From Nitrospira sp. (GTDB lineage: Bacteria > Nitrospirota > Nitrospiria > Nitrospirales > Nitrospiraceae): a DNA stretch of 64,000 bases. A program made the translations under genes and the position numbers. The DNA lies in the NCBI GenBank assembly GCA_024998595.1, contig JACOEK010000003.1, positions 124,001 through 188,000 of the forward strand, in the 5' to 3' direction. This document shows positions 1-21,198 of the stretch, piece by piece. Position 1 is the first letter of the stretch. Every line of letters starts with the position of its first letter. The notes under the pieces were generated by a model. It ran no database searches and was not told the origin of the DNA. It was given only the letters and a program-made list of their open reading frames with translations.

Positions 1-2137
1 CCAAATGGGGCGGATCTTGTTTGTAGTCAGCCAAGAGCGTGGCTAGATTGTTGGCCGACAGGAGATTGCGCGGATTGATTCGTAAGACAGTTTCATACGA
101 TGCAATAGCCTCGTCGATCAACCCACGGTCGGCGAGCAATGACGCCAGCAGCATGTGCAATTCTTCGCTCGAAGGATTGGCAACCAAACCTTCCTGCACG
201 ATCTTGATGGCCTGGTCAGGCTGTCGTTGCGCCTGCATCAAGCTTACCCAGTTGAGCCAAGGCGTCACCCAGGCTGGATTGATTTTCGTAGCCTGTCGAT
301 AGTGTGCTGCGGCTGCGTCTCGTCGGCCGAGAATGGATGAGACCTCTCCCAATAGACCATACGCATAGGGGTGGGAAGGGTTGGTGCTTACGATGCTTTC
401 CAGTCGCCGGCGGGCATGCTCCGCTTGTTTTTGCATGAGGTCAAGCCGAACGAGGGCCACAAGCGGATCTGCAACATTCGGGGCCATGGTTGCAGCCCGC
501 TCAAAGGCGACGGAAGCTCTCGCATAGTCATTCCGGCTCTCGTGCAGGCGCCCCTCTGCCATAAAAAATGATGGACTGTCTCCCGTCGCTTGACGTAAAC
601 GGTCAAGGACTGATTTGGCATGAACCCATTCACCGACCGCCAGATCTAAAAGGAATAAGCCTTCCAATGCCGGCAAGTAGGCAGGATTCATTTTGAGCAA
701 GCCCAGGAGGCGCGCCCGTGCCTTGGGGCCATGCCCTGCTTGGGTCTCCAGTGTGGCCAATGCTAATCCCGGTTCTAAGGCACCTGGGTTGAGAGCCACC
801 GCGCGCTCGAAACTTTCACGGGCAAGCTGGGCCTCTCTCGTCTGAATATAGGCCTGGCCCAGAAGGTGGTGGACGTGGGACAATTCTGGCTGGTCGCGCA
901 ATACAGTCCGAAAGGCCTGTACTGCCTCTCTTCCGTTTTGCCCTAAGAGCGCAATCTTGCCTTGCAAGATTAATCCTTCGGCGGACCGCGGATTTTCTCC
1001 TAATACCGCAGCCAGCCGCTGCAGGGCCTCATCCTGCTTTCCTGCGGCGAAATCGAGTTGAGCGATTTTGACACTGGCGTCTAGGCCGGCTGGCTTCTTT
1101 TCGTATTCCTTAGCCATCGATGCATATACATTCCGGGCCGCAATCATATCCTTCTGATGCTCGTACAAGGCGCCCAATGCAAGCGGAATTTTGGTCGAGT
1201 ACGGCAGTCGTTCCATGGCCTGCCGAAATGCGGCTTCGGCGGATTCTTTTCCTCTTCGCAATCTTAAGAAATCAGCCAATGCCAGCCAGGTTTGCTCTTG
1301 GTCAGGAAGCGCCTGCAAGGCTTCGCGCAAGGTAGCTTCGGCACGGTCAAACTCATGGTGCTGGTCGTAAAACCGCGCGAGTTTCAACCGATGGTCGTAG
1401 ATGGTCGGTTCTTCTTGGACCATCTGACGCAACACCTGCTCCGTGGCGGGGTTGTCATGCGCTTGGTCTAAAATGGCCTTGAGGTTATTCAATAGATCCA
1501 AATGATGAGGATGTGAGCGGAGGGCCTGTTGCAAGATGGTTTTTGCTTCCTGTAAGCGCTGCTGATGGCCATAGAGGGTTGCTAACAGGATAGCCGTGTC
1601 CGGTTCATCAGGATGGCGCCGGTAGAGATCTTCAGCTCGTCCCACGGCTTGGGAAATTTTGTCTTGTTGGGCGAGCACGGCAATTTTCAGCGCCTCAGCC
1701 TGAGGATCTTGTGGAGTTTTTCTTTGCACTCTTTCCGCTATGCGCAGTACCTCGTCGGCGAGTTTGGCTTCCAAGTAATATTTCGCCAGCATGATGAGAG
1801 CGTCCCGGTGATCGGGATTGATATCCACCACTTGTTGGTAGTTGGCGACAGCATTACGCCAGTTCTTCTCCTTCTCTTCCACCTGGGCCACGAGGTAATA
1901 AGCCTCGGCATCCTTGGGATCAATCTTCAATACATTGCGAAGTGCGACACGGGCCTTCGGGAAGTTCCCCGCCTGGATATACTCCTGGGCTTTTGCACGG
2001 TATTGCGCCTTCCGCTCTTGAGGCCCCCCGCATGCCGACAGGGTGAATATCAGCGGTAGCGTGAACATGACGGCGAAACGGCAGAAGGTTGTAGGCCGAC
2101 GCTCGCTCATGAAGCCACCAAGCTCATCATTTTCCAT
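1..2137 (-). CDS. prsT: TPR-repeat lipoprotein of the PrsT type (PEP-CTERM/exosortase system), 3' end outside window
   Basis: The reading frame runs from an ATG at 2137 to the left edge without a stop, giving at least 712 codons; the C-terminus is missing. The N-terminus has a basic stretch, a hydrophobic segment and a lipobox-like LSAC-G, so it is predicted to be an outer- or inner-membrane lipoprotein. The rest is almost wholly tetratricopeptide repeats (for example IQAGNFPKARVALRNVLKID and NPRNLLSANNLATLL). Very long TPR lipoproteins beside exosortase genes are known as PrsT, thought to serve export or assembly of the exopolysaccharide that accompanies protein sorting. It starts 4 bases after the stop of the WecA-like gene, so the two are probably cotranscribed. 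A second in-frame ATG at 2110 is possible. The PrsT assignment rests on length, lipobox and context. Confidence 0.8.
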   Translation of the reverse strand, partial: MENDELGGFMSERRPTTFCRFAVMFTLPLIFTLSACGGPQERKAQYRAKAQEYIQAGNFPKARVALRNVLKIDPKDAEAYYLVAQVEEKEKNWRNAVANYQQVVDINPDHRDALIMLAKYYLEAKLADEVLRIAERVQRKTPQDPQAEALKIAVLAQQDKISQAVGRAEDLYRRHPDEPDTAILLATLYGHQQRLQEAKTILQQALRSHPHHLDLLNNLKAILDQAHDNPATEQVLRQMVQEEPTIYDHRLKLARFYDQHHEFDRAEATLREALQALPDQEQTWLALADFLRLRRGKESAEAAFRQAMERLPYSTKIPLALGALYEHQKDMIAARNVYASMAKEYEKKPAGLDASVKIAQLDFAAGKQDEALQRLAAVLGENPRSAEGLILQGKIALLGQNGREAVQAFRTVLRDQPELSHVHHLLGQAYIQTREAQLARESFERAVALNPGALEPGLALATLETQAGHGPKARARLLGLLKMNPAYLPALEGLFLLDLAVGEWVHAKSVLDRLRQATGDSPSFFMAEGRLHESRNDYARASVAFERAATMAPNVADPLVALVRLDLMQKQAEHARRRLESIVSTNPSHPYAYGLLGEVSSILGRRDAAAAHYRQATKINPAWVTPWLNWVSLMQAQRQPDQAIKIVQEGLVANPSSEELHMLLASLLADRGLIDEAIASYETVLRINPRNLLSANNLATLLADYKQDPPHL

Positions 2138-2141
2138 GACC

Positions 2142-3770
2142 CTACATCCATGCCTTCACCCCCAATCCAAACAACACCCAGAGCGACACCGCCCCCAATT
2201 GCTTCACGCGATCGGTGAAGCTATGCAACAACAGCTCAAAGGCGAAATACAGAACGATCAATTTTGCGGCTAAGATACTCAGGGTAGGCATGTCCGCCCG
2301 CATTTCCGGCAGCAACGGAACGATCAAGGCGAAAAATACCATGAGGTAATCAAGCGGCGTAGTTTGGAAACGGTTACCGCGGCCGAACCGCATGCTTAAC
2401 AAGACTAAAACGGCAATGAGGGCTAAAAGTGAATTTTGAGTGACATAGATGGGCCATATGTCCGGTAGTCCGGAATGCTCAACCATATACATCAGAAAGG
2501 CGCTGCCGACGTACAACCCTCCCCGTACAAAATGTGAGCGATACTGGGGCAGGAACCACGGCCCGGCCAACACCACCACGAAAAGACTAATGGCCGCAAA
2601 TCCGACATCTCTCGGTACATGCCCAGGGAGGAAGATATGTGCGACTAAAAATAGTGGAACGACGACGGCCAGAAAACGGGGGGTCATGTCACTGACCCAC
2701 AGCCCTGCCCTGGCGAGTTTGCCGTCAGAGAGTACCCGACCGTTTGATGTAATGGACGAGGCCTCACGGCGACGCTCAGTCGCAACAAACAAGGAGAACA
2801 TGGCTAGGGCGAACGCACCATAGATGGCAAGGATCAGCACATCGGATTGCCAACGAAGAAGATAGGCCAGCCCCACCATCACCGCCTGAATCCCATAGAT
2901 CACGATGACGGCTTCATAATGGGACAATCCCAGCGCCAGAAGCTTGTGATGTATATGGTTTCGATCACCGATGAAAGGCGAGCACCCCTTTGCAAGCCGT
3001 TGACCCATGACGGCAATCGTATCGAGAAAGGGCAGTCCGAGTACAAGCAAGCCAATTGTTAAGGGAAAAGGACCCCGGGCTGGATCGCTCATGAGCAGTA
3101 CAAGGACCCCCATCGAGAACCCGAGCAATTGACTGCCCGCGTCGCCCATGAAAATCCTGGCCGGATAAGTGTTGTAGCGTAAGAATCCGAGTAACCCGCC
3201 TAAGAATCCCGCGGCCAGCACCAGCACGGCTGTGTCATGGGATAGATATGCGAGATAGGCAATGCCGGCGAAACTCAGGAACGCCAGACCTCCTGCCAAT
3301 CCATCGAGGCCGTCGGAGAGGTTGACGGCGTTCGAGGCTCCGACTAGAAATATCACGGTCAAGGGTACTGTCAACCAGAGCGGCGCTTCTTCTTCGTAGA
3401 GAAATGGGATCTGTTCGAAGCGGATCTGGCCGATGACCACCACCACCAGCACAGCCAGTAATTGCCCAAGGAGTTTTGTGCGGTAGTTCAGATTGGCCCG
3501 ATCATCCCAAATGCCGAATCCGAGGAGGATGGCCGCGCTCACCAATGCCGGCGCAATGACCGGATCTTGCGGCACCCAGAAGAAAATGGACAGGATGGCC
3601 GCAGAGCCGAACGCGATGCCGCCGATCCTCGGGATTGGATTGGCGTGGACCTTTCTCTCGCCAGGAAGATCCATGAAACTCCAGCGCCCGGCATTCATCT
3701 GCAACGGCGGGATGAGCGCCATGCAGATGAAGAGCGAGGTGATGAAGCAAAAAAAGACTGCGCTGGTCAT
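2142..3770 (-). CDS. WecA/MraY-family undecaprenyl-phosphate sugar-1-phosphate transferase with extra C-terminal membrane domain
   Basis: This polytopic membrane enzyme would transfer an N-acetylhexosamine-1-phosphate from UDP-sugar to undecaprenyl phosphate, starting a lipid-linked glycan. The family motifs are all visible: an early DLPGERKVH/PIPRIGG block, FGIWDDR, NAVNLSDGLDGLAGG, MGDAGSQLLGF and the GDRNHIHHKLL histidine motif. The 542 residues exceed the usual 350 or so; about 200 extra residues at the C-terminus contain further membrane helices and do not resemble the catalytic core. I chose the ATG at 3770 because it lies 2 bases after the exosortase stop and begins with MTSAVFFCFI; an upstream in-frame extension to 3938 would overlap the exosortase and is low-complexity. 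WecA-like enzymes are regular members of exosortase/exopolysaccharide loci. Confidence 0.88.
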   Translation of the reverse strand: MTSAVFFCFITSLFICMALIPPLQMNAGRWSFMDLPGERKVHANPIPRIGGIAFGSAAILSIFFWVPQDPVIAPALVSAAILLGFGIWDDRANLNYRTKLLGQLLAVLVVVVIGQIRFEQIPFLYEEEAPLWLTVPLTVIFLVGASNAVNLSDGLDGLAGGLAFLSFAGIAYLAYLSHDTAVLVLAAGFLGGLLGFLRYNTYPARIFMGDAGSQLLGFSMGVLVLLMSDPARGPFPLTIGLLVLGLPFLDTIAVMGQRLAKGCSPFIGDRNHIHHKLLALGLSHYEAVIVIYGIQAVMVGLAYLLRWQSDVLILAIYGAFALAMFSLFVATERRREASSITSNGRVLSDGKLARAGLWVSDMTPRFLAVVVPLFLVAHIFLPGHVPRDVGFAAISLFVVVLAGPWFLPQYRSHFVRGGLYVGSAFLMYMVEHSGLPDIWPIYVTQNSLLALIAVLVLLSMRFGRGNRFQTTPLDYLMVFFALIVPLLPEMRADMPTLSILAAKLIVLYFAFELLLHSFTDRVKQLGAVSLWVLFGLGVKAWM

Positions 3771-3772
3771 GG

Positions 3773-5323
3773 TCAATCCGGAATGTATCGGGTGAGTTGA
3801 GGCTGAATCTGTCTGGCGAGTTGGAGGATGCGATGCTCCACCTCCTTCTCCGCCTCTCCCGGAAGGACTGATGCCGAAAGACGAATCAGCGCCCCGTCGC
3901 TTCGCTGCTTCGTCAAGGCATCCCATAAGAGATACCATTTCACCGAGTATTCGCTTGCAAGTTGTCGATCGCGCTGCTTGAACCAGTATAAGACCAACTG
4001 TTTCTCGCGATCTTTCTGAATCAAGACGCGATTGACGGGAATAGCTCTTCCATCGGCTGGGAGAATCACACGGTCATGCGAGGTAATCTCCCAACCACCT
4101 CCGGGAATGCAGCTCGACGGAGAGTGAGCGGATCGACCATTACGCTGTGAGCGGTAGTAGGCCATGTAGAGGGTAACTGGTGCCTTTTCGGACTCTGCAT
4201 AGTCCGCAAGCAGGTAATCGTCGAATCGCAAGGTGGAAATGAGTTGGGGTTCCACCGGCAAAGTGTTGCCATGCCAGTTTCCGATGCGCATAGCAAAATC
4301 CATAAACGCGGCGCGTGCGGGGGGACGCTCCTGGCGATCACCCATCGACCATCCAAACAGAGCGGCGCAGGCGAGCAATGACATGCTTGCGACGTAAGCC
4401 GGAAAAATAAACCCAGCATTGGGAGCAGATGGACCAGGTCCGGAAGACGGCATGGCGGAGCTGCCAGCATTCGAGTTGTCATAGATCTGAAAGTGCGAGA
4501 TTCCACGTGAGCCAGGTAAAGATTGCACCCTCGAGAGTGCCCACATTTCCGCGAACAGTATCCCCAGGGTGGTCAAGAATAGAACCCATCCTTCAAATAG
4601 ATGCAGGAAGCCCTCCGCTGCTTGAGGGCCGTACCACTCCACGAGAACACCTACCATCCCAATGCGCACGCCATTGACCAGTACCGAGATTGGCAAAGCG
4701 GAGAGAACCAGTACGATTCGCTTCCACATGCGATCACGGAAAAAGTATGCACACAAGAGGGCAAGTGCCGTCAGCGGAAACAGGTACCGAATGCCGCTAC
4801 AGGCTTCGGCCACCTGCAATTGGACCGGCCCGAGATCGATGACATTGCCTTCGCGAAAAGCAGTCACTCCGATAAATTGGAGGACCCCTACCCCAAGAGC
4901 CGATGACCACAGCTGCAATTGGGCGGAAAGGCTGTTATAGAGAAAAATAGGCAACGGGATGGCGGTCAGCAGATAGGCCAGAGGAAAAGTCAGTTCTTGT
5001 AGCGCTTTGATACCAAGGAATGAGAGCACCAGTCCGACAATCATGAGCCACAGCGACAGATGAGAGATTATGTAGAGAGTACTGACGTTCCCTGCTACGT
5101 AGAGCAGAAGGCCCGGAAGCAGAACCATTGTCCCCCACCAGGACGGCTCAAACGTCACTTTCGCCAACTGGTGGCGGTGGTGCCAGATTAGAACTGCGCT
5201 GATAATCGGGATGAAAGGACCGTGGCTATAGTCGTCACGTCCCCATTGGCCCATCATGAACAACAGACTATCGGCATACATGTAGCCCAGGAGGGCAACA
5301 GTAACCAATCCGATGAAAGCCAC
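3773..5323 (-). CDS. xrtD: Exosortase fused to EpsI domain, probably XrtD (VPLPA-CTERM-specific)
   Basis: This is an integral-membrane transpeptidase-like enzyme that recognises C-terminal PEP-CTERM-type tails of exported proteins. Residues 1 to about 275 form the multi-helix exosortase domain with DDYSHGPFIP near the N-terminus, the catalytic-cysteine motif EACSGIRY (Cys175), the NGVRIG arginine motif (Arg220) and a later histidine (His241). The remainder, after one more membrane segment, is an EpsI domain with the SSCIPGGGWE motif. The neighbouring exported protein ends in a VPLPA-CTERM tail, which is the partner of the XrtD exosortase type; that pairing is why I prefer XrtD over XrtA, and this is an inference. 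It begins an apparent operon with the WecA-like and PrsT-like genes, with gaps of 2 and 4 bases. Confidence 0.85.
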   Translation of the reverse strand: MAFIGLVTVALLGYMYADSLLFMMGQWGRDDYSHGPFIPIISAVLIWHHRHQLAKVTFEPSWWGTMVLLPGLLLYVAGNVSTLYIISHLSLWLMIVGLVLSFLGIKALQELTFPLAYLLTAIPLPIFLYNSLSAQLQLWSSALGVGVLQFIGVTAFREGNVIDLGPVQLQVAEACSGIRYLFPLTALALLCAYFFRDRMWKRIVLVLSALPISVLVNGVRIGMVGVLVEWYGPQAAEGFLHLFEGWVLFLTTLGILFAEMWALSRVQSLPGSRGISHFQIYDNSNAGSSAMPSSGPGPSAPNAGFIFPAYVASMSLLACAALFGWSMGDRQERPPARAAFMDFAMRIGNWHGNTLPVEPQLISTLRFDDYLLADYAESEKAPVTLYMAYYRSQRNGRSAHSPSSCIPGGGWEITSHDRVILPADGRAIPVNRVLIQKDREKQLVLYWFKQRDRQLASEYSVKWYLLWDALTKQRSDGALIRLSASVLPGEAEKEVEHRILQLARQIQPQLTRYIPD

Positions 5324-5456: not shown

Positions 5457-6146
5457 CTAAGATTCCTTTCGGGAAACTAAGCCCCGTGAACCCAGACCGA
5501 CCAGCGCGATCAATCCTGCGCCGAACAACCACACCGCCGCCGGCAATGGGACCAGAGACGTCAAGGCGCCCTGTACCCGTGTGCTCGCTGATCCAAACAG
5601 AAGGCGGAACTGGGACGTGGCGAACGATGAAAGGCTCGGCGGAACTGCTGGAAGCTTATCGTTGGAAAAGATAGTGCCGCTTGGATCGGTTAGCTCAAGC
5701 AGAAAGCTCGTCGGCGTGTATCCGTTCACAGGATTGCCGAACAACCCATTAACTCGCAGTTCATAAATATCGTTGCCGGCGCCAGGGGCGCTATTGGTCA
5801 CTCTGATAAAGCTGTTTCCCGGTGCAAAGGTGGCGAAGTACGTCCCAACGGTCACAGAGAAATTTTGGATCGCGTTTGTATATTGCCCGATGTTCGAAGC
5901 TGCGTTCCTATCAGTTGTCAGCGTGTTGAAGCTGGCTCCTCCGGACACCGGGAGAGACGTGCTAAAGCCGTCTGCGCCGAAACCCCCTGGCGTGAACACA
6001 CCGCCGGATACGCTTCCGACAGAACCACTGAAGTTAAAGGACATTGAAGCTGCCTGAGCCGCACCAGGTGTTGCGAGCACCGCACAAAGAAGGCCCGCTC
6101 CTATCCCGAGCATGGTCATCACTGGCTTTTGATTGCTGGTTGTCAT
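5457..6146 (-). CDS. Exported protein with VPLPA-CTERM sorting domain
   Basis: This 229-residue protein has a signal peptide (MTTSNQKPVMTMLGIGAGLL, then a hydrophobic core ending at AQA), a secreted body of about 170 residues rich in Ser, Gly, Asn and Thr, and a C-terminal tail VPLPAAVWLFGAGLIALVGL followed by a short Arg/Lys-containing end. That tripartite tail is the VPLPA-CTERM sorting signal handled by exosortase. The ATG at 6146 has a strong Shine-Dalgarno (GAGGAGGAAAGAG); an in-frame extension upstream to 6272 lacks signal-peptide character. It is probably a surface or extracellular-matrix protein and is the only sorting substrate seen here. No enzymatic domain was recognised. A hairpin at 5348-5371 separates it from the exosortase operon, so it may be made in greater amount than the sorting enzyme. 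Confidence 0.9.
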   Translation of the reverse strand: MTTSNQKPVMTMLGIGAGLLCAVLATPGAAQAASMSFNFSGSVGSVSGGVFTPGGFGADGFSTSLPVSGGASFNTLTTDRNAASNIGQYTNAIQNFSVTVGTYFATFAPGNSFIRVTNSAPGAGNDIYELRVNGLFGNPVNGYTPTSFLLELTDPSGTIFSNDKLPAVPPSLSSFATSQFRLLFGSASTRVQGALTSLVPLPAAVWLFGAGLIALVGLGSRGLVSRKES

Positions 6147-6535
6147 CTCTTTCCTCCTCGACAGGTATAAAAGCGCACTTGCATAACCACGCATGGCCCA
6201 CTTAGGCAGAGCACAATTTCGCTGTAGCTCTAATGGTCTTTGGACAGTACTCAAAACTGAAAAGCAGCGCAAGGTTTTTTTGGAAAAAAAGTAAAATAGT
6301 AATACGTATTCTACGTGTCTGTATGGATTGTCCTACACACATGTCGAAGAGAAACGGGAATCACTTCGAATAGTGTCTCATGTTGTGACATTTCTAATTA
6401 TCGGCCGGAGCCAAGTGGACCTATGCACAAGCAAACTCAGTCACGTGTGAATATGCGCGACGTGTCACACGTCATTTTTAGTTCTTCCGTGTCGTTCACT
6501 TGGACGAACCCAGCCAAAACCCAGCAACACATTAC
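6147..6535. other. 389-bp intergenic region upstream of the VPLPA-CTERM gene
   Basis: No gene is evident. It should hold the promoter of the leftward VPLPA-CTERM gene. It is AT-rich around 6265-6320, with a poly-T/poly-A inverted pair and the palindrome AATACGTATT. A 15-bp perfect palindrome GACGTGTCACACGTC lies at 6459-6473, and related TGTGACA/ACGTGTGA strings occur nearby, so a regulator site is possible. A GCCGATAA string at 6398-6405 (minus strand) resembles a sigma-28 -10 box but lacks a convincing -35. Confidence 0.4.
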
Positions 6536-7435
6536 TTAGGGTTGTGTGGCTGGCAATTTCTTGATGAACTCCTTCGTCACCGTCCACCAGGCAGCGTTGT
6601 TATCCCATTTAGCCGGACCGCCATTGTCCCACCCGCCCCAAATCACGACTCCATCCGCGTATGTCTTGGCCATCTGCAATTGCAATCTCCAGAAATCCGC
6701 AGGCAAGTAGGCCCCTTTAATCGAAGGGTTTGAGTTGTGATACTGGGGCATAATGAATACGTAGACTGGTTTTCCCTTTGCGAGACGTTTAGCTTCTGCA
6801 ATCTGAGTGTACGCATAGCGCACCCAGCCACCGCGGTCCGTGTAGAAGGTGTAGGCTGAAGGAAAAAGAATGTCTACGGCATGAGCAAGAGGGGTCAGTG
6901 AATCATTCCCAGCCGTAAAGGACGCCCATTCCTTGCTTCCCGGGAACGAGAGCGACTTCCAATAGTCGCGTATGGGTGGGGCACCGTAATAGCCTACCTT
7001 TAGGGATGGGGCCGCTTCCTTAAACCACTGCAACACTGTCATGTATTTTGATAGACCGTTTCGAACCTCATTAGAGTCTCCCTGCAATGGCCAATGCTCA
7101 ATATCAATGACCACAGGGTTGTTTGTGGCCTGTGCGCCCAACGCGAGACGCTCTACCACATCCTTTTCTGGCAAACGGTCGGCATTTTTGTACCAATCTT
7201 GCCCAAATTGGGTCGTATAAATTATTGAGAGTGGCTGGATGCCATATGCCGAAAGGTCTGGCTTGCCGGCGTACAAGGTGCCATCAAAGACTTTGAATGG
7301 CTTTGCAGTCGATAGTCCTTGTGCGTGTGCAGTGGGCCAGTCCACGTCACGCGCAAAAAACGAAATCGACCAAATCCCCAAGCTTGTTGCTGCGACAAAT
7401 GCGGCAACAAAAAGTATTCTATGCATTGTTTTCAT
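6536..7435 (-). CDS. Exported protein with GH56 (hyaluronidase)-like motif order, paralogue A
   Basis: This 299-residue protein has an N-terminal signal segment (MKTMHRILFVAAFVAATSLG) and a body resembling a TIM-barrel glycosidase. Its landmarks follow the order seen in GH56 hyaluronidases: an early IIYTTQFGQDW block, VVIDIEHWP with Asp111-x-Glu113 where GH56 has its catalytic D-x-E, KVGYYGAPP (GH56: GYYGFP-like), DILFPSAYTF (GH56: LYPSIY), KPVYVFIMPQYH, and DGVVIWGGW (GH56: GVVLWVSW). The match is by eye; family membership is an inference. The predicted role is cleavage or remodelling of an extracellular polysaccharide. The ATG at 7435 has GGAGG 7 bases upstream. A close paralogue lies next to it on the same strand, and glycan synthesis genes follow. 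Confidence 0.65.
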   Translation of the reverse strand: MKTMHRILFVAAFVAATSLGIWSISFFARDVDWPTAHAQGLSTAKPFKVFDGTLYAGKPDLSAYGIQPLSIIYTTQFGQDWYKNADRLPEKDVVERLALGAQATNNPVVIDIEHWPLQGDSNEVRNGLSKYMTVLQWFKEAAPSLKVGYYGAPPIRDYWKSLSFPGSKEWASFTAGNDSLTPLAHAVDILFPSAYTFYTDRGGWVRYAYTQIAEAKRLAKGKPVYVFIMPQYHNSNPSIKGAYLPADFWRLQLQMAKTYADGVVIWGGWDNGGPAKWDNNAAWWTVTKEFIKKLPATQP

Positions 7436-7870
7436 GATGCATCCTCCACGTAAAGTTCTTTTACTCGCCCATCTCGACCAGTCAAATTCATGTGCATGAG
7501 TTATCTTAAACAAGCGGCTTCACCCCGCTATCTTCATGCTCATCGGTCGCCGGCAAGTGCAACTTGACTCAGATGAACCAGCGCACAATGTGATTCCTAA
7601 TCTCTTACATCATGCCGCCACATGCCGATCCCTCGGACCAGAGACGTATGGTGTTACCCCTCACGTAGAGCGACTTAGGGGTAGAAATGTGTCTGCTGAG
7701 ACCTGGAATGGATTCGGAGTACGGGCCGAACAGTTGGGTCAGAGTTTGGTCACGCAGCCGCAAGGAACATGGAACGCGCGGGCGCTGTAGTTGTCTAGAG
7801 GTGAGAAAGACGATGTGTCATTTTGATACGTCGGCACATATTTCCTATGGTTCGTCGTACCCGTTGAGTG
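7436..7870. other. 435-bp intergenic region between the two GH56-like paralogues
   Basis: I see no coding sequence that I would support, no strong hairpin and no repeat. It must contain the end of the 7871-8746 transcript and probably a promoter for the gene starting at 7435. Short frames on both strands lack Shine-Dalgarno sequences and recognisable protein character. Confidence 0.4.
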
Positions 7871-8746
7871 TCAGGGTTTTGGGTTCTGTATTGTCGTCAT
7901 AAAATCCTTTGTCACCTTCCACCACCCAGCCTCTTCATCCCATTGTGCTGGGCGATTGTTCTTTCCCCACCCTCCCCATAGAACAATCCCATCGGCATAT
8001 TGTCTCGCCGTTTCCAGCTCGAGACGCCAATAGTCAACGGGCAAATATGTTCCGGAGAGCGTCCGATTAGAATCATGGTATTGCGGCCATAGAAACACAT
8101 ACACAGGCTTTCCATTCGCACATCTTCGTGCCTGTGCAATTTGACCATAGGCATAACGCACCCACGCCCCTTGATCGGCATAGAAGGTGTACAAGGAGGG
8201 AAAGAGCACATCCACCGCTCCCGCCAGGGACCGTAGCCGGTCGTTATCGGTGGAAAGAGATTCCCACTCCTTGCTGAGGGGGGGGCGTATTGCTCTCCAA
8301 TAGTCGCGCAATGGTGGGACGCCATAATAACCAGTGACTAATTCGGGAACCGCTTCTTTAATCCACTGCAGAACCGTAATGTATCTCGATAGACTGGATT
8401 CCACTTGGGCGGAGTCTCCAGTCAGGGGCCAATGTTCGATATCGATCACGACATAGCCGGCTTTTGCCTTGGATTCGAGAGCCACTCGCTGCACGACTTC
8501 CTTATCAGGTAAGCGAGTGGCCGTTTTGAACCAGTCCTTACCGAACTGGCCCGCATAGGTAATGCTGATAGGCTGAATCCCGACTAGAGCCAGATTCGGC
8601 TTATCGGCGTACAGCAGGCCGTCAAACACGACGAACGGTTTGGGTTGCGTAAGCGACTGCGCATCACCAATAGAGGGCGCAGCGCATAACGCCATGATAC
8701 TCAGGACACGGAGGAGAAAGGCTGCAAAACCGCGAAGGTCAGACAT
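7871..8746 (-). CDS. Exported protein with GH56 (hyaluronidase)-like motif order, paralogue B
   Basis: This 291-residue paralogue of the 6536-7435 product shares its blocks over nearly the whole length: KPFVVFDGLLYADKPNL, SITYAGQFGKDWF, VVIDIEHWP (Asp102-x-Glu104, the presumed catalytic pair), VTGYYGVPPLRDYW, DVLFPSLYTFYAD, KPVYVFLWPQYHDSN and DGIVLWGGW. The N-terminal hydrophobic segment ending near GDAQ is a likely signal peptide. ATG at 8746 and GTG at 8749 are adjacent possible starts, with AGGAAGGTG upstream. A hyaluronidase-like glycosidase acting on the polysaccharide encoded by the neighbouring cluster is a reasonable hypothesis, but the substrate is unknown and an inactive carbohydrate-binding barrel is also possible. 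Confidence 0.65.
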   Translation of the reverse strand: MSDLRGFAAFLLRVLSIMALCAAPSIGDAQSLTQPKPFVVFDGLLYADKPNLALVGIQPISITYAGQFGKDWFKTATRLPDKEVVQRVALESKAKAGYVVIDIEHWPLTGDSAQVESSLSRYITVLQWIKEAVPELVTGYYGVPPLRDYWRAIRPPLSKEWESLSTDNDRLRSLAGAVDVLFPSLYTFYADQGAWVRYAYGQIAQARRCANGKPVYVFLWPQYHDSNRTLSGTYLPVDYWRLELETARQYADGIVLWGGWGKNNRPAQWDEEAGWWKVTKDFMTTIQNPKP

Positions 8747-8782: not shown

Positions 8783-10000
8783 TCATCCGCATTGCATAGC
8801 ACTTGTAATTTCCTGCTGCCAATGCCCGACGGCATACGATTTTTCAAATCGTTGCTCAAATAACGTTCGTGCTCTATTCCCCAATACACGGCACAGCGAC
8901 GGGTCCTTCGTAAGGGGCGATATCAGATCAACGGCTCTCTGGACGTCGTAAGGCGCGACGGTAAAACCGCATTGGGCGTTTTGTATCAACAGCGGAACTT
9001 CACCCTCCCTATCACCAATATAGAGAATGGGTCTTCCGGCGGCAGCAATTCCGTAAAATTTGCTCGGTACAATGAAGCCTTCCAGCGCCGGCAGGAGCGA
9101 GATGACATGTATGTCAGGAACACTGAGACTGAGTGCCAGCAGATCACGCGGCTGGTAGGGCTTGAAGATGACGTTGGCCAGAGCCTTCTCTTCCACCGTC
9201 CGTTTCATGGAAGACAGTTGGGCGCCATCTCCGATAAACAGAAATACGATGTCCTTCTCATTTCGCAAAAGATCGGCCGCCATGAGAATCGTGCCGAATT
9301 CATGAGCTCTCCCGAAATTGCCTGAATAGCCTATTACAAATTTGCCTTCGAGTTTCCATTGCATGCGAAGCGTATTGGTCTCGGGCTCAATAGGATGGAT
9401 CGCCGATCCATCAGCCCAATTATGGATCACGCGAATTTGCGCCGGCGGAATACCTTCCCCTGCGAGCTTTCGTGCCATGCCCTCCCCGATTACGACGTTC
9501 CGCTTCGCGGTTAGGAGAGATCGGTTTCTAACCGCACGGAGTGGTCGGTCAAACCATTGAGCCCCGTCGATGGCAAGCGCTGACGCCACCTCAGGAAAGA
9601 GGTCCTGAATCCAATTGACCAGGACGGCTCCGCGAATGCGCGAGACTATCGCACCAACCACAGAGATCAGAGGAGGATCGGTCTTGGCTATGATCAGAAC
9701 ACCTTTCTCTGTGCCAGCAAGTAAGTGCCATAATGCACTCAGGTAAAATGTCAGATAATCCAGCGTACGCCCCGCGAGCCGTTTCCGCCCAAACCGAGTG
9801 GACCACACTCGGATGATTTCAATGCCGTGCAACGTGTCTGTCCTGGGCTGCATCTTATGCGAGTTGTCCGAAATCAGCCGACTCGTCAGCACCTTAACGT
9901 CAAATCCGTTCTGCGCGAGGTGAAGAGTCAGGTCCGTCAACAATTGACTCGTCGCAGAATGATCAGGGAAGAAGAATCGATTGATGAAAACGATCTTCAT
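8783..10000 (-). CDS. Group 1 (GT4) glycosyltransferase, WbuB-like
   Basis: This 405-residue protein has the two-Rossmann GT-B layout: N-terminal MKIVFINRFFFPDHSATSQL with the acceptor-domain pattern of WbuB-type fucosaminyl/N-acetyl-sugar transferases, and a C-terminal donor domain with VIGYSGNFGRAHEF, KPYQPRDLL and the ALEGFIVPSKFYGIAAAGRPIL segment containing the E-x-PSK nucleotide-sugar contact region. It is expected to act at the inner face of the cytoplasmic membrane, adding one sugar to a lipid-linked repeat unit. It begins 3 bases after the stop of the next gene upstream, so the two are probably translated from one message. Sugar specificity cannot be read from the sequence. Confidence 0.85.
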   Translation of the reverse strand: MKIVFINRFFFPDHSATSQLLTDLTLHLAQNGFDVKVLTSRLISDNSHKMQPRTDTLHGIEIIRVWSTRFGRKRLAGRTLDYLTFYLSALWHLLAGTEKGVLIIAKTDPPLISVVGAIVSRIRGAVLVNWIQDLFPEVASALAIDGAQWFDRPLRAVRNRSLLTAKRNVVIGEGMARKLAGEGIPPAQIRVIHNWADGSAIHPIEPETNTLRMQWKLEGKFVIGYSGNFGRAHEFGTILMAADLLRNEKDIVFLFIGDGAQLSSMKRTVEEKALANVIFKPYQPRDLLALSLSVPDIHVISLLPALEGFIVPSKFYGIAAAGRPILYIGDREGEVPLLIQNAQCGFTVAPYDVQRAVDLISPLTKDPSLCRVLGNRARTLFEQRFEKSYAVGHWQQEITSAMQCG

Positions 10001-10003
10001 CTT

Positions 10004-10906
10004 CTATTTGTGAATTGTTGAAGAATCATTGTCGACAACAAGAGAGCCTCTTTCGAGTCGCTGCAATTCGTAACAGCAGGCATCGACGTAAAATCTAAAC
10101 CAGAACCCCTGCAGGACGTGATAGATCAATCCAGGAGTGCCGTCAAGGAATCCGCCCCTGAACAAGTATCGAGTGATGAAATAGAGAAAAGCTCGAAAGA
10201 ACATGGGAGTCTTCGCATACAGGCTTGAACGCAACCACCGTCTTCTTTCAATTGGCGATCCGTGCAATTTCCCCTGAACAGCAACGGAAGCGTCTCTGCC
10301 ATGACCTTTGAGCTCACGGGCTTCCATTTGTGCCCACTTGTTGTGCCGCGCAGTCCATGAAAAGAGCGATGTGGCGGTCAGTTCTAGTAAATCTGCCTCT
10401 ATTAGGGAGGTGCGGCCATCGACGAGGAAATGCTGATCATACTCCCGGTCTTCGCAACGGCCGGATTGCCTCCGAAAGATTCTGCAATGGTACGTGGGAT
10501 ACAGCCCACCGTGGATCATGGGTTTTCCGAAGAAGATAATTTTTCGCCGGACCATGAATCCAGCATAATCCTGCGCCGCGTGCGACCTCTCGGAAAACAG
10601 CTCACGTAGTTTATCAACAAGTTCCGGCGATACTCGCTCGTCAGCGTCGATATGAAACACCCATTCATGCGACAGTGGCACATTATTCTGCGCCCAATTT
10701 CTCTGATGGGAATAATTCTGGAAAGGATGTGTCAGGACTTTCGCACCGTATGTACTGACAATGTCCAAGGTGCGATCCGTGCTTCCGGAGTCGACAACAA
10801 AGACTTCTTGCGCCCAGTGAACAATGGTTTCCAAGCATGGCCCGACATTCCCTTCTTCATTGAATGTCAGAACAATGATTGATAGCGGCAACTTTTGAAG
10901 TGACAT
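10004..10906 (-). CDS. GT2 glycosyltransferase, WaaE/KdtX-like
   Basis: This 300-residue GT-A enzyme has an N-terminal LSIIVLTFNEEGNVGPCLE, the FVVDSGSTDRT nucleotide-binding segment and the WVFHIDADERV acidic motif (DAD, metal and UDP-sugar binding). This pattern is typical of the WaaE/KdtX family of beta-glucosyltransferase-like proteins. The C-terminal part has a hydrophobic FFRAFLYFITRYLF segment that may bind the membrane. It is followed after 3 bases by the WbuB-like gene. The family name is secure; the acceptor and donor sugars are not. Confidence 0.85.
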   Translation of the reverse strand: MSLQKLPLSIIVLTFNEEGNVGPCLETIVHWAQEVFVVDSGSTDRTLDIVSTYGAKVLTHPFQNYSHQRNWAQNNVPLSHEWVFHIDADERVSPELVDKLRELFSERSHAAQDYAGFMVRRKIIFFGKPMIHGGLYPTYHCRIFRRQSGRCEDREYDQHFLVDGRTSLIEADLLELTATSLFSWTARHNKWAQMEARELKGHGRDASVAVQGKLHGSPIERRRWLRSSLYAKTPMFFRAFLYFITRYLFRGGFLDGTPGLIYHVLQGFWFRFYVDACCYELQRLERGSLVVDNDSSTIHK

Positions 10907-11081
10907 TCGTTTTCTCAGTGAGTAGAAGCAGAGTGTGGCAATGGAGAGAGTTGTTCAATCGTTCTTACCCAAGAATTTACCAATCAGTTACCGCGGGTAG
11001 GTTGGTATTAGAGTTCCATTCAATTGGTGACTGATTACCTTTTCGCCTCAGGTCCGCCCATTGCCCCCCCACGCGGTATCA

Positions 11082-12014
11082 TCACGCGAGGGGCGCCAGA
11101 CGACCAGCAATTTCTTCGTAAGGAACGAAACGCCGTCTGTTTAACTCGACAAAGAGTCTAAACGTAGGGAGGGAGATCGGTGTTCGTTTACCCAGTCTGG
11201 CGAAACAGGACGCATACCCACGCACGATCCCTTCAAGGGCGATGGGCAGCTGGCGAATGTTACTCACGCCTCTTGCGAGGCAACGTGCGGTTTGGAGACC
11301 CAGCAATGGAATCAGCAGTGGGAGCGGTGCCGTATACCATGATGACAAAATCATGTTCCGATACAGCCACACATTTTTTCCTCTTTTGTGCCTTCCCTCT
11401 GTTGCCGGAAAATGGTGGATAGGATCGGTCATCGCCAACCGTACAACTCTGCCGGCATTAAGCATTCGTTGGGAAAATTCAGGCTCCTCGCCCCAGTGGA
11501 AAAGATGGCCTTGAAAGCCTCCCAAAGCTAAGAACAGATCGCGTCGTACCGCATAGGCGGCACCTGTAAAGGAATGCATAACCCAGAACGCGTGCTTTTC
11601 ACTCGGCCTTCCCACATAAAATTCTCGCGCAACACCTCCAATGACGTTGATTAACGGCAGTGCTAGCGCCCCGACTCGTTCCTCGGAGAAATATGGTAAT
11701 GCCTGAGAAATAACCTTCGGGGAAGAAAAGATCGCATCATCATCCAACGAGAATATAATGGGGCTCGTTGCAATTTCTGCGGCGCGGTTTCTTTGTACGA
11801 TCAATCCACAGCGAGTCTCAGATGTCACAAGTCGCACCATCGGGAACTCCGCCCTTACCATTTCACCGGTTCCATCAGTGGAGGCATCGTCCATCACAAT
11901 AATTTCTACTTGTTCCTGTTGCGCCAGAGTGGAGGTGATGGCGTCCCGGAGTAGTTCTTTTCTATTCCGAGTGGTGATCACGACTGTTGCTAGCTGGTTT
12001 TGGCTTTTGCTCAT
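11082..12014 (-). CDS. GT2 glycosyltransferase
   Basis: This 310-residue GT-A glycosyltransferase has ATVVITTRNRKELLRDAI at the N-terminus, EIIVMDDASTDGT as the nucleotide-binding motif and IFSLDDDAIF as the metal-binding D-x-D. A later HWGEEPEFSQRML segment fits the ED catalytic-base region of rhamnosyltransferase-like GT2 proteins, so deoxysugar transfer is possible but unproven. Its start overlaps the stop of the WcaF-like gene by 4 bases (12011-12014), a translational-coupling arrangement. About 175 non-coding bases separate it from the downstream WaaE-like gene. Confidence 0.85.
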   Translation of the reverse strand: MSKSQNQLATVVITTRNRKELLRDAITSTLAQQEQVEIIVMDDASTDGTGEMVRAEFPMVRLVTSETRCGLIVQRNRAAEIATSPIIFSLDDDAIFSSPKVISQALPYFSEERVGALALPLINVIGGVAREFYVGRPSEKHAFWVMHSFTGAAYAVRRDLFLALGGFQGHLFHWGEEPEFSQRMLNAGRVVRLAMTDPIHHFPATEGRHKRGKNVWLYRNMILSSWYTAPLPLLIPLLGLQTARCLARGVSNIRQLPIALEGIVRGYASCFARLGKRTPISLPTFRLFVELNRRRFVPYEEIAGRLAPLA

Positions 12015-12601
12015 ACTTCTCCCTGGCTGCCTTCGTCATTGAGGGTCCGGCTTCTTATGACACGCGCCGGATTGCCGCACACGACAACCCACGGCATGAC
12101 GTCCCGCATCACCGTCGATCGCGCCCCCACTACTGATCCTTCACCAACGGTAACCCCTGGTCCTACAAAAACATCCGCCGCCACCCATGCACCGCGTTCA
12201 ATCACTATTGGTGATGAGGTGAGAGGCATGTTCTGCAACGTATAGTCGTGACTGGCTGTGCACAAAAAACTGTATTGACTCACCGTGGCATGCGAACCTA
12301 ATCGAATCTGGCCGACGGAATAACATTCCACTTTTTCTGATAGACAACTGTAGTCTCCCATCTCCAGATTCCAGGGAGCCCATATGTCAGCGGAAGGGTA
12401 CGGATGAGCACCACGGCCGATTTTCGCACCAAAGAGTCTTAGGAGAGCGCGACGCCAGGCATGAAATGGCCGAGGGCTTGGACGATACAGCGTCCGCCAT
12501 ACGACCCGCCACAGCAATCTAGCCAGTTTGTTCCCGAATGAATGCGAACTCGGACAATGCGAGAGATTGACTACCCTATGCTCGCCGGTCTTGTGTGCCA
12601 T
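12011..12601 (-). CDS. WcaF-like hexapeptide-repeat acetyltransferase
   Basis: This left-handed beta-helix acyltransferase is expected to acetylate a sugar of the polysaccharide using acetyl-CoA. Visible are the FGAKIGRGAHPYPSADIWAP segment typical of WcaF (colanic-acid acetyltransferase), hexapeptide turns (IRLGSHATVSQYSFL), the catalytic-type histidine in TASHDYT, and the C-terminal VVGARSTVMRDVMPW plus GNPARVIRSR. The start is uncertain: ATG at 12601 gives 196 residues and avoids overlap with the upstream gene, while ATG at 12637 and GTG at 12646 would overlap its end. It shares 4 bases with the following GT2 gene. Confidence 0.82.
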   Translation of the reverse strand: MAHKTGEHRVVNLSHCPSSHSFGNKLARLLWRVVWRTLYRPSPRPFHAWRRALLRLFGAKIGRGAHPYPSADIWAPWNLEMGDYSCLSEKVECYSVGQIRLGSHATVSQYSFLCTASHDYTLQNMPLTSSPIVIERGAWVAADVFVGPGVTVGEGSVVGARSTVMRDVMPWVVVCGNPARVIRSRTLNDEGSQGEV

Positions 12602-12624
12602 GTGTTCAGAGTCGCGCACTCCCA

Positions 12625-13194
12625 CTATTGTGCCCATGGAGGGCACAATTCCGGAGTCATCAACTCCCCCTCGAGCATTTTTTCATGAATTTGCCGGTCA
12701 TTCGAATCGGGAAAACGCTCTCCAATTTTGCGATTCGGCACTCCGCCGTGTATTTCAAATGGGGGCACATCTTTGGTCACCACAGCACCTGCACCGATGA
12801 TGGCACCGCGGCCGATCGTCACCCCTGAAAAAATAATCGCTCCAAAACCAACCCAGGCATCCTCACCAATATATGTGCGTTTCATGTGCGGTCGCCCTGA
12901 AAAAATTATCGGCTTACCTGGGATGTCATAGACGTGATCTCCGCCGACAATGGCTACATGAGGAGCCAACATGACATAGCGACCCAGCTCTACGTTCGGT
13001 CCCAGGATGCAGCCGATGTTGACGAAGCTGTATTCATGGGCCGTCAGATCACTCGACACCCGACAGCCGTGTGCCATGTAAAACGTGGGGTGCACGTTGC
13101 TCAATCCAAAGCGCCAACGGCGATATGTCATAAGACCTTTGCGAGCCAGCTTGTAGCTCCAATCCATGGACCGTATGAGATTAAGAAAATTCAT
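12625..13194 (-). CDS. Hexapeptide-repeat O-acyltransferase
   Basis: This 189-residue acyltransferase has a beta-helix C-terminal half (RYVMLAPHVAIVGGDHVYD, then YIGEDAWVGFGAIIFSGVTI and GRGAIIGAGAVVTKDVPPFE, followed by GVPNRKIGER), the pattern of CysE/LacA/NodL-type acetyltransferases, with a histidine in GGDHVYD as the likely catalytic base. Together with the WcaF-like protein it suggests the surface glycan carries at least two acyl modifications. It lies between a GT4 gene and the WcaF-like gene on the same strand. The substrate is unknown. Confidence 0.83.
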   Translation of the reverse strand: MNFLNLIRSMDWSYKLARKGLMTYRRWRFGLSNVHPTFYMAHGCRVSSDLTAHEYSFVNIGCILGPNVELGRYVMLAPHVAIVGGDHVYDIPGKPIIFSGRPHMKRTYIGEDAWVGFGAIIFSGVTIGRGAIIGAGAVVTKDVPPFEIHGGVPNRKIGERFPDSNDRQIHEKMLEGELMTPELCPPWAQ

Positions 13195-13227
13195 TCAGTG
13201 GACGCATGTGTGTGTCGATAGCCGCAG

Positions 13228-14385
13228 TCAAGTTTGGCCTTCAGCAGGACAACCCGCTACAGCACGCGAAATTATATTTGCCTGGTACTGAGGGTTGTAG
13301 AAGCTTTCAATTATCGCGATGCACTCTTGGCGGGACGTAGCGTCCGGCCATGGACGATGGACCCATCGTTTCAACACCTTTGCCAGGTCCACAACATCAC
13401 CATGGCGAAATAGGTCCCCTGTTTTTCCTGGAACAATAGATTCCGACTCAGGCATCTGGTTGTGAACATCATCATGTGTCACTACGGGAACTCCATAGGC
13501 TAGGCTGTGCATGGCAGTCAGACCGACCTGACCCGGAGACACCGTCAGATTCGAGGACATGATCAGTTCCGCCAGCCGTTCCTCCTCGTAACAGGCACCA
13601 AAAAAGTACACGCTTAGTCCCCGGTCGAAAGCCATCTCTTTTAATGCCGATCTTTCTGGCCCCTCTCCAACTAATAGAAGAGATGTGTTGAGCCCCTCAT
13701 CGCGCAATAAGGACATGGCTTCAAGCAAGAGGTCTATTCGTTTCAGTTTGTTCAATCTGCCGGTGCATATCATGACGGGTGAGGCGGGATCGTTAAAAAA
13801 CCGACTTCGGATGCTGGTAAGCCGGGAGCGACCAATGGTTTCCCTCAATTTGCGCTGTTGTGGATAGTTCAGACTGTTGTAAATAACGTATAAGTTTTCT
13901 TGAGGAAACCCGTTTCGTAATCCAATCGCTCTCGCTCTATTCCCGTACAGCAACAAACCGTGCGCCAGCCTGTAAAACGAATTTCTTACGAGCCGTTTGA
14001 GTCCACGCTCATCCCTCACCCATCCGTGTGTCCAAAACAAAACCCGCTTACCTAGCAACCTCGCCAGAGCTGCTGAACACCACGTGCTCAGGTAATTGGC
14101 GTTCCCGAGAAAAATGATTACGTCCGTTCTCGGTTGTGTCGCGAGGCGCAGCAACCCTTTTTGCCAAATGAGATTCGCGCCGAGTTTCAAGCAGGGAGAC
14201 CAACGCCACCGGTCCTTGGGAGGTTGCCATGCCTCGATTTCGTTGTTGGGTTCATCTAGATCGCTTACCAACAAATAGTCGATTGTCTCTGAGGCAAGCA
14301 GTGTCTGCATGATCGCTGCACGGTAATGGGCAAAAAAGTGATAAACGACCGCAACGCGCCGCCTTTCACCACGAGCTTGAACCAT
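13228..14385 (-). CDS. Group 1 (GT4) glycosyltransferase
   Basis: This 385-residue GT-B enzyme has an N-terminal Rossmann domain (RVAVVYHFFAHYRAAIM) and a C-terminal GT4 donor domain: VMICTGRLNKLKRIDLLLEA (the GR-x3-K phosphate-binding motif), LLLVGEGPERSALKEM and LTVSPGQVGLTAMHSLAYG. The usual E-x7-E is changed to a Q-x3-A-x-H-S-L form, seen in some GT4 enzymes that build polysaccharide side chains. The ATG at 14385 follows the end of the O-antigen ligase gene by 21 bases. It probably adds one sugar of the repeat unit. Confidence 0.84.
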   Translation of the reverse strand: MVQARGERRRVAVVYHFFAHYRAAIMQTLLASETIDYLLVSDLDEPNNEIEAWQPPKDRWRWSPCLKLGANLIWQKGLLRLATQPRTDVIIFLGNANYLSTWCSAALARLLGKRVLFWTHGWVRDERGLKRLVRNSFYRLAHGLLLYGNRARAIGLRNGFPQENLYVIYNSLNYPQQRKLRETIGRSRLTSIRSRFFNDPASPVMICTGRLNKLKRIDLLLEAMSLLRDEGLNTSLLLVGEGPERSALKEMAFDRGLSVYFFGACYEEERLAELIMSSNLTVSPGQVGLTAMHSLAYGVPVVTHDDVHNQMPESESIVPGKTGDLFRHGDVVDLAKVLKRWVHRPWPDATSRQECIAIIESFYNPQYQANIISRAVAGCPAEGQT

Positions 14386-14406
14386 CCCTGTGTTCCTATC
14401 TCTCTC

Positions 14407-15747
14407 TCATGATGTCGGTTGGTCGGCCAGGTATCGAAAGGATGAACGGGTCACCTCCAGGTCGGATTGAGCATCGAATCTTCTTCTTGCCATGACTTGT
14501 TCGAAACGACCCAAACAGATGCCTAGCATAAAGGGTTCGAGGTTGACCAGCAGACTTCCCTGCTTAAGCGACAGGATAACCGTGAACAGGTACATGCCGA
14601 AAAGTCCACCCAAGAGCATTCTCAAATCTGGATCACCTTGCGACAGCTGCAGGCCCATGTAGCACGAACGCAGCGTAAGGACCAGAATGATTCCGTATAA
14701 CACGAAGCCAAACACTCCTTCTTCCGCAAGGACCTCTAGTGGTAGAAAATGCGGATAGATCCCAAGAATGCGCCGGTCATAGGCTGCGGAATTGCCAAGA
14801 CCAAATAGGAAAGTAGTTGGTGACTCACTGGCAAGGTCGACCATAAGCATGGCGTTGGCAAGTCGTCCTGAAACATCCTGCTGGGCGGCATGTTCGTTCC
14901 ATCTCCCTTTTCCACTGGCGACTTCTCCTCCCCAGAATTCTTGCATGGTCCAGCCTACCGCCGCGCTGATAAACAGGATGACTAAGGTGAGGATGGCAAA
15001 TTGCTTCACGTTTCTGAGTCCACGACTTATGGGCCAGCATACGAGACAAACTAGCAATACCCCGAGCAATTGACCGCGTGAGCCTGACCTCACGATTAAA
15101 GCCAGTGCCATCGCGACAAACGTCCACTTCAAGGAAAACCACAGAACCGATCGAGGCCCAGGCTCGGTTAAAATCAGAATGACAACAACCAGTCCCGCCA
15201 TGGCTGCAATGGCAAGCGGATTGCCCAGCACGTCATCAAGGACGATCCGTCGCGACTCCCATTTCACGAAGAAAAGCAGCAGCATGGCCAGAGTTCCTCC
15301 GACCAAGGCCAATGCGGCATTGGCTGCATGAAGATCGCGCTCTTCGGTAATCAACAAGGGGCACAACATGACGATGGTCACAATGTAGGGCCACCGACTT
15401 TCCCACAAATTCAAGCTCAGATCTGGGCGAGGAGCCCATTGAATGGTGGCGAAGGCATAGAGGAAAAATGCCAAGGTGAGCCAGCCGATTGTCGGGTAAC
15501 CCTTGAATAGGACAAGTCCTGTACGAAAGAACTGCACGATGAGAGCGAAAACGAGTATTCCGCCTATCACAAGGTTCGTCGCACTCTGATGATGAGCAAA
15601 AAACTTCGTCGTCGCTTGTCCCCACTGTTCGAGTCCGAACATGCACAGCACGCCCGCAATGGCCGCTCCAGGGTGACGCCACGAGGCTGCGAGGAGACCA
15701 ACGCATATTAGTGCGTAGGTAACCAAGCCCAGCGAACTAGATTGCAT
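14407..15747 (-). CDS. O-antigen ligase/polymerase family membrane protein (Wzy/WaaL type)
   Basis: This 446-residue polytopic protein has about ten to twelve hydrophobic segments and a large extracytoplasmic loop between roughly residues 270 and 330. Its core SGSRGQLLGVLLVCLVCW is the conserved RG motif of the O-antigen ligase/Wzy superfamily. The periplasmic loop ends with FGLGNSAAYD and a histidine in YPHFLPLEVLAEEG, matching the catalytic H-N/x-L-E pattern of this family. It either polymerises lipid-linked repeat units or ligates the chain to its acceptor; sequence alone does not separate the two. The Wzx flippase next to it favours a Wzx/Wzy-dependent pathway. Confidence 0.84.
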   Translation of the reverse strand: MQSSSLGLVTYALICVGLLAASWRHPGAAIAGVLCMFGLEQWGQATTKFFAHHQSATNLVIGGILVFALIVQFFRTGLVLFKGYPTIGWLTLAFFLYAFATIQWAPRPDLSLNLWESRWPYIVTIVMLCPLLITEERDLHAANAALALVGGTLAMLLLFFVKWESRRIVLDDVLGNPLAIAAMAGLVVVILILTEPGPRSVLWFSLKWTFVAMALALIVRSGSRGQLLGVLLVCLVCWPISRGLRNVKQFAILTLVILFISAAVGWTMQEFWGGEVASGKGRWNEHAAQQDVSGRLANAMLMVDLASESPTTFLFGLGNSAAYDRRILGIYPHFLPLEVLAEEGVFGFVLYGIILVLTLRSCYMGLQLSQGDPDLRMLLGGLFGMYLFTVILSLKQGSLLVNLEPFMLGICLGRFEQVMARRRFDAQSDLEVTRSSFRYLADQPTS

Positions 15748-15779
15748 GCCGAAACCTCTCTAGAGCCTGGAAATGTACG

Positions 15780-17318: not shown

Positions 17319-17421
17319 CAATATTGCATGCAAAAAGTTAGTGCGACTTTACTGGATTGGATCCCGGATCGTGTACTCGGCAGCGTTCCTGCAGTTGTGC
17401 TCCAACAGGTGCAATGTGAAA

Positions 17422-18453: not shown

Positions 18454-18491
18454 GATGTTTGGCCCTGCGTGGAGATCGTCGACGTTGGGGG

Positions 18492-19088: not shown

Positions 19089-19228
19089 GATATCAATGCC
19101 TGCATCCGCTTGGTCCTTCTACGTTTGCCGCTTCGCCCGCAATCCCCGTCTACGACCAGCATGTCTCGAGCTCCACATGGTTCGTTCCCGCCATAGACTT
19201 CATCTCGAGCTGCCGCACGTCCTTGAAG

Positions 19229-20184: not shown

Positions 20185-20188
<4 letters not shown>
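19229..20188 (-). CDS. fcl: GDP-L-fucose synthase (GDP-4-keto-6-deoxymannose epimerase/reductase)
   Basis: This 319-residue short-chain dehydrogenase/reductase carries out the final step of GDP-L-fucose synthesis: 3,5-epimerisation of GDP-4-keto-6-deoxy-D-mannose and NADPH reduction. It shows the NADP-binding [11 protein letters not shown], the [12 protein letters not shown] block, the catalytic LATICAYP plus YGLAKKMM (Tyr-x3-Lys), and the LYGPGDNFD loop typical of Fcl/WcaG. It overlaps the stop of gmd by 4 bases (20185-20188), as these two genes usually do. It shows that the surface glycan or flagellar glycan probably contains L-fucose or a derivative. Confidence 0.94.

Positions 20189-21198
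<1,010 letters not shown>

Follow-up and report, generated by a model that had tools for sequence, protein, structure and literature searches.

What role could two hyaluronidase-like proteins play in the biosynthesis of a bacterial exopolysaccharide (EPS)? The question is raised by a 64,000-nucleotide stretch of DNA from Nitrospira sp. (assembly GCA_024998595.1, contig JACOEK010000003.1, positions 124,001 to 188,000), hereafter the window, in which the genes for two predicted exported proteins, HylA and HylB, lie within an operon that also encodes the exosortase XrtD. A first-pass annotation, made from the letters alone, had noticed in both proteins the motif order of glycoside hydrolase family 56 (GH56), a family usually treated as one of animals and venoms. 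Here we present sequence, structural and comparative evidence that makes the kinship of HylA and HylB with GH56 virtually certain, and that couples bacterial GH56 genes to a single type of glycosyltransferase, the WcaI-type GT4 enzyme designated GT4a in the window. In our reading, the two proteins are likely to act as endo-hexosaminidases of the retaining, substrate-assisted kind and to trim the EPS in whose assembly GT4a takes part.

HylA and HylB belong to GH56

HylA and HylB are paralogues with 56% identity. Each ATG is preceded by a purine-rich ribosome-binding site, and each protein begins with a hydrophobic, signal-like segment, in keeping with the signal peptides proposed at first pass. 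The blocks on which the GH56 assignment had been founded (IxYxxQFG, VVIDIEHWP, GYYGxPP, LFPSxY, KPVYVF and GxVxWGGW) were all found in both proteins, in the same order. Pfam Glyco_hydro_56 (PF01630) matched HylA with 30.6 bits and HylB with 26.6 bits, above the curated cut-off of 23.2, and the Pfam scan of the two proteins returned no other family; no NCBIfam model matched either. Since the Pfam alignment is restricted to the C-terminal half (profile positions 161-307 of 335), the D-x-E block rests on profile and fold comparisons, not on Pfam.

Relatives were collected by running a 12-member profile against a species-level genome collection. The resulting 56 loci are spread over about ten phyla (Nitrospirota, Pseudomonadota, Thermodesulfobacteriota, Planctomycetota, Bacteroidota, Acidobacteriota, Verrucomicrobiota, Cyanobacteriota, Fibrobacteres and, with one metagenome-assembled genome, Peregrinibacteria), and 43 diverse members were compared. 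PF01630 was matched by 25 of the 43 at an E-value of 0.01 and any rival family by at most one, and a profile of the 43 found, in the PDB, bee venom hyaluronidase (E 2.9e-8), the wasp enzyme (3.4e-5) and human HYAL1 (0.0027). Sedolisin and GDSL-like identities were rejected, their sequence matches being weak and partial. Two outlying proteins were also seen: a much longer and more divergent protein of 600 aa in genome G086 (L010, 1-1848, plus strand), GH56-like in its C-terminal half and with the motif LDLEPPEF, and a Fibrobacteres protein (L079, 1356-2966, plus strand) in which a GH56-like domain is followed by a long Ser/Pro/Val repeat tail, so that the domain occurs in a modular protein as well.

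AlphaFold (AF2) models were obtained with a mean predicted local distance difference test score of 88.3 for HylA and 92.4 for HylB. With both models, Foldseek placed six GH56 entries on top among the PDB matches listed. VIA-align likewise put six GH56 PDB entries first among the matches listed, with Z 20.2-16.9 for HylA (root-mean-square deviation 2.9-3.6 Å across 235-248 residues) and 20.9-17.4 for HylB, the runner-up fold being GH164 at Z 15.1-15.6. The GH164, GH42, GH113 and GH5 TIM barrels were rejected, since their Z lay below that of every GH56 entry and their identity was 7-12%. Because many TIM barrels reach Z of at least 12, the fold alone is not decisive; fold, sequence match and active site together are. 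The GH56 fold type is a (beta/alpha)7 barrel (PMC12254123), and seven barrel strands, as we read the DSSP assignments, are present in both models. Pfam, the profile comparison with the PDB and the fold searches all gave GH56 as best match and no unrelated family, and the first-pass assignment is upheld.

The active site is retained in both copies

In the human and bee enzymes, activity is lost or cut on mutation of Glu131/113, Asp129/111, Tyr202/184, Tyr247/227 and Trp321/301 (human/bee numbering; PMC13080975). In the profile alignment, bee D111, E113, Y184, Y227 and W301 correspond to HylA D102, E104, Y141, Y186 and W257; the segment that places the D-x-E pair is secondary and weak, and the pair is anchored by its position at a strand end. 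In both models this pair, singled out at first pass as catalytic in type, stands at the C-terminal end of a barrel strand. Across the 43 relatives, E104, Y186 and W257 are invariant, D102 is kept in 41 and Y141 in 38, and the active site is intact in both HylA and HylB. In our estimation, the two are probably active hydrolases.

In the tree, HylB falls in a well-supported clade with five members, each from a different genome, and the neighbour of HylA is the copy of another genome (G007); the duplication is therefore older than several Nitrospira species. The paralogues may have diverged in their fine specificity or in when they act. The spacer between them (7436-7870, 435 bp) holds no gene in an otherwise tight operon, and could be a promoter or a remnant.

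GH56 is coupled to WcaI-type GT4 in XrtD loci

A close XrtD is present in 16 of the 29 genomes of the genus Nitrospira, and GH56 is confined to these 16. The transferase encoded in the slot upstream of XrtD is of either GT4 or WecG/TagA type, and GH56 is missing from every WecG locus. By slot type, GH56 accompanies WcaI in 4/4 genomes, a diverged GT4 in 2/4 (G009 and, decayed, G020) and WecG in 0/7; the contig of G010 stops short of the slot, so that this genome is not countable as GT4 type.

The prediction that GH56 occurs with GT4 and never with WecG/TagA was set down beforehand, and 60 further XrtD loci, taken from elsewhere in the phylum, were scored by tblastn. It was borne out, with GH56 in none of the 20 WecG/TagA loci and in 10 of the 24 GT4 loci, GT4 being scored at about the registered threshold (p 8.6e-4). 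The GT4 scores formed two groups: GH56 was found in 10/10 loci of the WcaI type (at least 200 bits) and in 0/14 with a diverged GT4 and a heparinase II/III-like neighbour, while loci with neither transferase had it in 3/16. The contrast between the WcaI type and all other loci (10/10 vs 3/50) gives p 3.8e-9, but the 200-bit split was chosen after the two groups had been seen, some GH56-positive loci were already known among the 56, and ancestry is shared, so that both p-values are descriptive. Overall, GH56 is present in 14/14 WcaI-type XrtD loci. The best control is provided by same-genome pairs: four genomes (G140, G311, G187 and G260) have two XrtD loci each, and in all four GH56 lies solely in the WcaI-type (GT4a) locus.

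Two further observations concern these loci. A heparinase II/III-like gene, which the window also carries (21544-23415, plus strand), is found in XrtD loci that lack GH56, namely in every one of the 14 test-set loci with a diverged GT4 and in several WecG loci (L084-L087, L090-L092 and L120-L159 include examples); the EPS of those types may be cut by its product, parallel to GH56 in the WcaI type. In L078 (G020, Nitrospira sp. RBC_NOB1) and L097, moreover, stops or truncations disrupt GH56 and GT4a together with part of the XrtD locus, as in decay of a unit.

Across phyla, the window genes were used as queries against the 56 GH56 loci, and an exosortase was found in 26, a WecA-like initiator in 24 and GT4a in 29; the exosortase was XrtD in 23/23 tested. 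Strict EPS markers occurred in 38/56 loci vs 0/20 control stretches, the controls being spaced 17-kb stretches of four Nitrospira chromosomes only and the loci spanning many phyla. This context supports the first-pass guess that the pair acts on the organism's own polysaccharide. Four Sphingomonadales members (L062, L066, L074 and L077) have Tat-like or short N-termini and lie beside Gmd/Fcl genes with no exosortase found nearby, and constitute a separate locus type.

Proposed function and its alternatives

WecA-like enzymes load N-acetylhexosamine (HexNAc)-1-phosphate onto the lipid carrier, and GH56 requires a 2-acetamido sugar in subsite -1. In the mechanism that we propose, the WecA-like enzyme would open each repeat unit with HexNAc-1-phosphate, GT4a would probably add the next sugar, WcaI-type GT4s being, by their family name, putatively early in repeat-unit assembly, and Wzy would presumably link the repeats. 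HylA and HylB would cut the resulting chain as retaining endo-beta-hexosaminidases, the beta configuration being presumed. Glu104 would serve as acid/base, and Asp102 would orient the 2-acetamido group of the HexNAc in subsite -1, which as nucleophile would give an oxazoline intermediate. Cleavage would set the HexNAc from the start of the repeat at -1 and the GT4a sugar at -2; this exact register is tentative, and we would put it at somewhat short of an even chance. The hydrolase would then travel with GT4a because it would read both sugars. By analogy with PelA and Pel, the likely outcome would be control over the length of the matrix polymer chains, over their release or over their turnover; the hydrolase activity of PelA yields secreted low-molecular-weight Pel and shapes Pel chains (PMC9894940).

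Several points weigh against trimming of the EPS by HylA and HylB. An EPS marker was not found in 9/56 GH56 loci. Just 6/29 genomes of the genus have GH56, with one more carrying decayed copies, so that it is not essential across the genus. In three XrtD loci (L119, L152 and L155) GH56 occurs but GT4a does not, and all the loci compared are related by descent, so that the p-values overstate their independence. Within the active site, D102 is replaced by Asn in 2/43 relatives and Y141 by Phe in 5/43, and Arg115 of svHyal (E+3), which contacts the hyaluronan carboxylate, corresponds to Pro107 in HylA and is Arg in 2/43 relatives. Apart from these points, cysteines are scarce (none in HylB, two in HylA, 0-3 in most relatives), and the two catalytic-domain disulphides of hyaluronidases are not conserved.

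The last two features bear most directly on the substrate. With the carboxylate-binding Arg and the animal disulphides missing, hyaluronan is an unlikely substrate, and the label of hyaluronidase in its strict sense is not supported by the sequences; the chemistry of GH56 has probably been kept and the substrate changed. The absent Arg also argues against degradation of foreign glycans, be they hyaluronan, chondroitin, chitin-like or other host or biofilm polymers, for food or spreading. Animal GH56 members act in this way and HylA and HylB are predicted to be exported, but their genes are part of an operon for EPS biosynthesis and are passed on together with a single glycosyltransferase type, and Nitrospira are chemolithoautotrophic nitrifiers; we regard such a role as very unlikely. 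The organism's own EPS is, in our estimation, the probable substrate. A loss of catalysis, leaving a GH56-fold protein that merely binds polymer, could draw on the Asn and Phe substitutions just given; dead homologues normally lose the acid, however, and here E104 is invariant, as are Y186 and W257, D102 is nearly so and both window copies are intact, which makes a dead enzyme the least credible of the alternatives.

The remaining alternatives grant activity and change its target or product. As a retaining transglycosidase, the enzyme would use its oxazoline chemistry to move the EPS chain to another chain or to an XrtD-sorted surface protein rather than to water. GH56 hyaluronidases do transglycosylate in some conditions (PMC11669647), and the operon encodes both XrtD and a VPLPA-CTERM protein. 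Five GT4a-GH56 pairs (L044, L048, L058, L060 and L061), however, have no exosortase found nearby, and a sorted protein acceptor is therefore not essential; transfer is unlikely. A periplasmic peptidoglycan hydrolase might open the wall for the EPS export machinery, given that the peptidoglycan backbone is a beta-HexNAc polymer and that some folds of peptidoglycan-hydrolase type (Cwp19, SleL) appear further down the fold lists. Such an enzyme would leave unexplained both the strict WcaI-type coupling and the absence of GH56 with WecG or a diverged GT4, as XrtD is common to all the locus types compared and the polyprenyl-phosphate HexNAc-1-phosphate transferase (PNPT) to nearly all, and we hold it to be highly improbable. 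Trimming of the EPS by HylA and HylB would account for the coupling through the GT4a sugar itself.

Genes of the operon

On the minus strand the operon runs from Gmd through the Fcl-like epimerase, a methyltransferase, GT4, Wzx, Wzy, GT4, two acetyltransferases, GT2 and GT2 to GT4a, HylA, HylB, the VPLPA-CTERM protein, XrtD, the WecA-like transferase and the PrsT-like protein (Table 1). Two further, divergent exosortase-like genes lie elsewhere in the same genome (G000:C9:225122-226519 and G000:C2:482182-482853).

Table 1. HylA, HylB and the other products of the XrtD/EPS operon, with their positions in the window
Feature	Position	Strand	Description	Evidence
HylA	7871..8746	-	291 aa, predicted exported GH56-like protein; D102, E104, Y141, Y186, W257	PF01630, AF2, fold searches
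HylB	6536..7435	-	299 aa, predicted exported HylA paralogue; D111/E113	PF01630, AF2, fold searches
GT4a	8783..10000	-	WcaI-type GT4 glycosyltransferase, 36 bp upstream of HylA	NCBIfam PRK10307 (WcaI family), E 1.1e-41, below cut-off
VPLPA-CTERM protein	5457..6272	-	Probable XrtD substrate	TIGR03370, 21.4 bits at C-terminus, just under cut-off 25.35
XrtD	3773..5323	-	Exosortase fused to EpsI/DUF3485 domain	TIGR04152, E 1.7e-161, 538.6 bits (cut-off 400); PF09721, PF11984
WecA-like transferase	2142..3938	-	Polyprenyl-phosphate HexNAc-1-phosphate transferase	PF00953, E 1.3e-39; TIGR02380 (wecA), E 9.9e-44, below cut-off
PrsT-like protein	1..2137	-	Tetratricopeptide-repeat (TPR) lipoprotein of exosortase/EPS system; continues past left edge of window	TIGR02917, E 4.8e-81
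Remaining EPS operon	10004..21237	-	GT2 and GT4 transferases, two acetyltransferases, Wzy, Wzx, methyltransferase, Fcl-like epimerase, Gmd	
Wzy	14407-15747	-		
Wzx	15780-17333	-		

Significance and comparison with known systems

A 2024 review of microbial hyaluronidases gives the classes as polysaccharide lyase families PL8/16/29/17/33/35 and glycoside hydrolase families GH16/84/88, GH56 not being among them. The reviews consulted name no microbial GH56 member, although bacterial entries may already stand in CAZy, and in the literature we found nothing on GH56 with Nitrospira, on hyaluronidase with an exosortase or on VPLPA. A bacterial branch of about ten phyla that keeps the full active site without the hyaluronan Arg would be a source of endo-hexosaminidases with new specificities, and of small enzymes in which no cysteine is conserved; it could also have a bearing on the origin of animal hyaluronidases. 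A bolder reading, which we consider doubtful, is that GH56 at its root consists of bacterial EPS-locus depolymerases, each matched to a polymer in which a WecA-like enzyme and a WcaI-type GT4 start the repeat, one operon thus encoding the enzymes that make a disaccharide and the enzyme that cuts it, with the animal and venom hyaluronidases an offshoot that changed substrate. The strict pairing of GH56 with one GT4 type also provides a rule by which EPS structure and hydrolase specificity may be guessed from sequence, as well as a way into the study of the biofilm matrix in nitrite-oxidising Nitrospira.

With the GH56 hyaluronidases (bee 1fcq, wasp Ves v 2 2atm, human HYAL1 2pe4 and PH-20 9jub), HylA and HylB share the fold (Z 17-21), the Pfam profile, the five active-site residues, a seven-stranded barrel and, presumably, an endo-type cleft. 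They differ in being bacterial, 12-23% identical and built of a domain of ~250 residues without the EGF-like tail, in lacking conserved cysteines, in the replacement of the Arg that contacts glucuronic acid by Pro, and in their location in an EPS operon. Like PelA, PslG and PgaB, they are predicted exported hydrolases whose genes stand among those of a single EPS system, and the EPS in question is their presumed substrate; unlike these proteins, which belong to other glycoside hydrolase families and folds, they are coupled to a WcaI-type GT4 and XrtD. The operon itself resembles known XrtD/VPLPA-CTERM loci (TIGR04152) in its XrtD, VPLPA-CTERM protein, WecA-like initiator and PrsT-like protein. 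Of the three types of XrtD locus, one carries GH56; the other two encode WecG/TagA or a GT4 of the diverged kind, frequently alongside a heparinase II/III-like protein.
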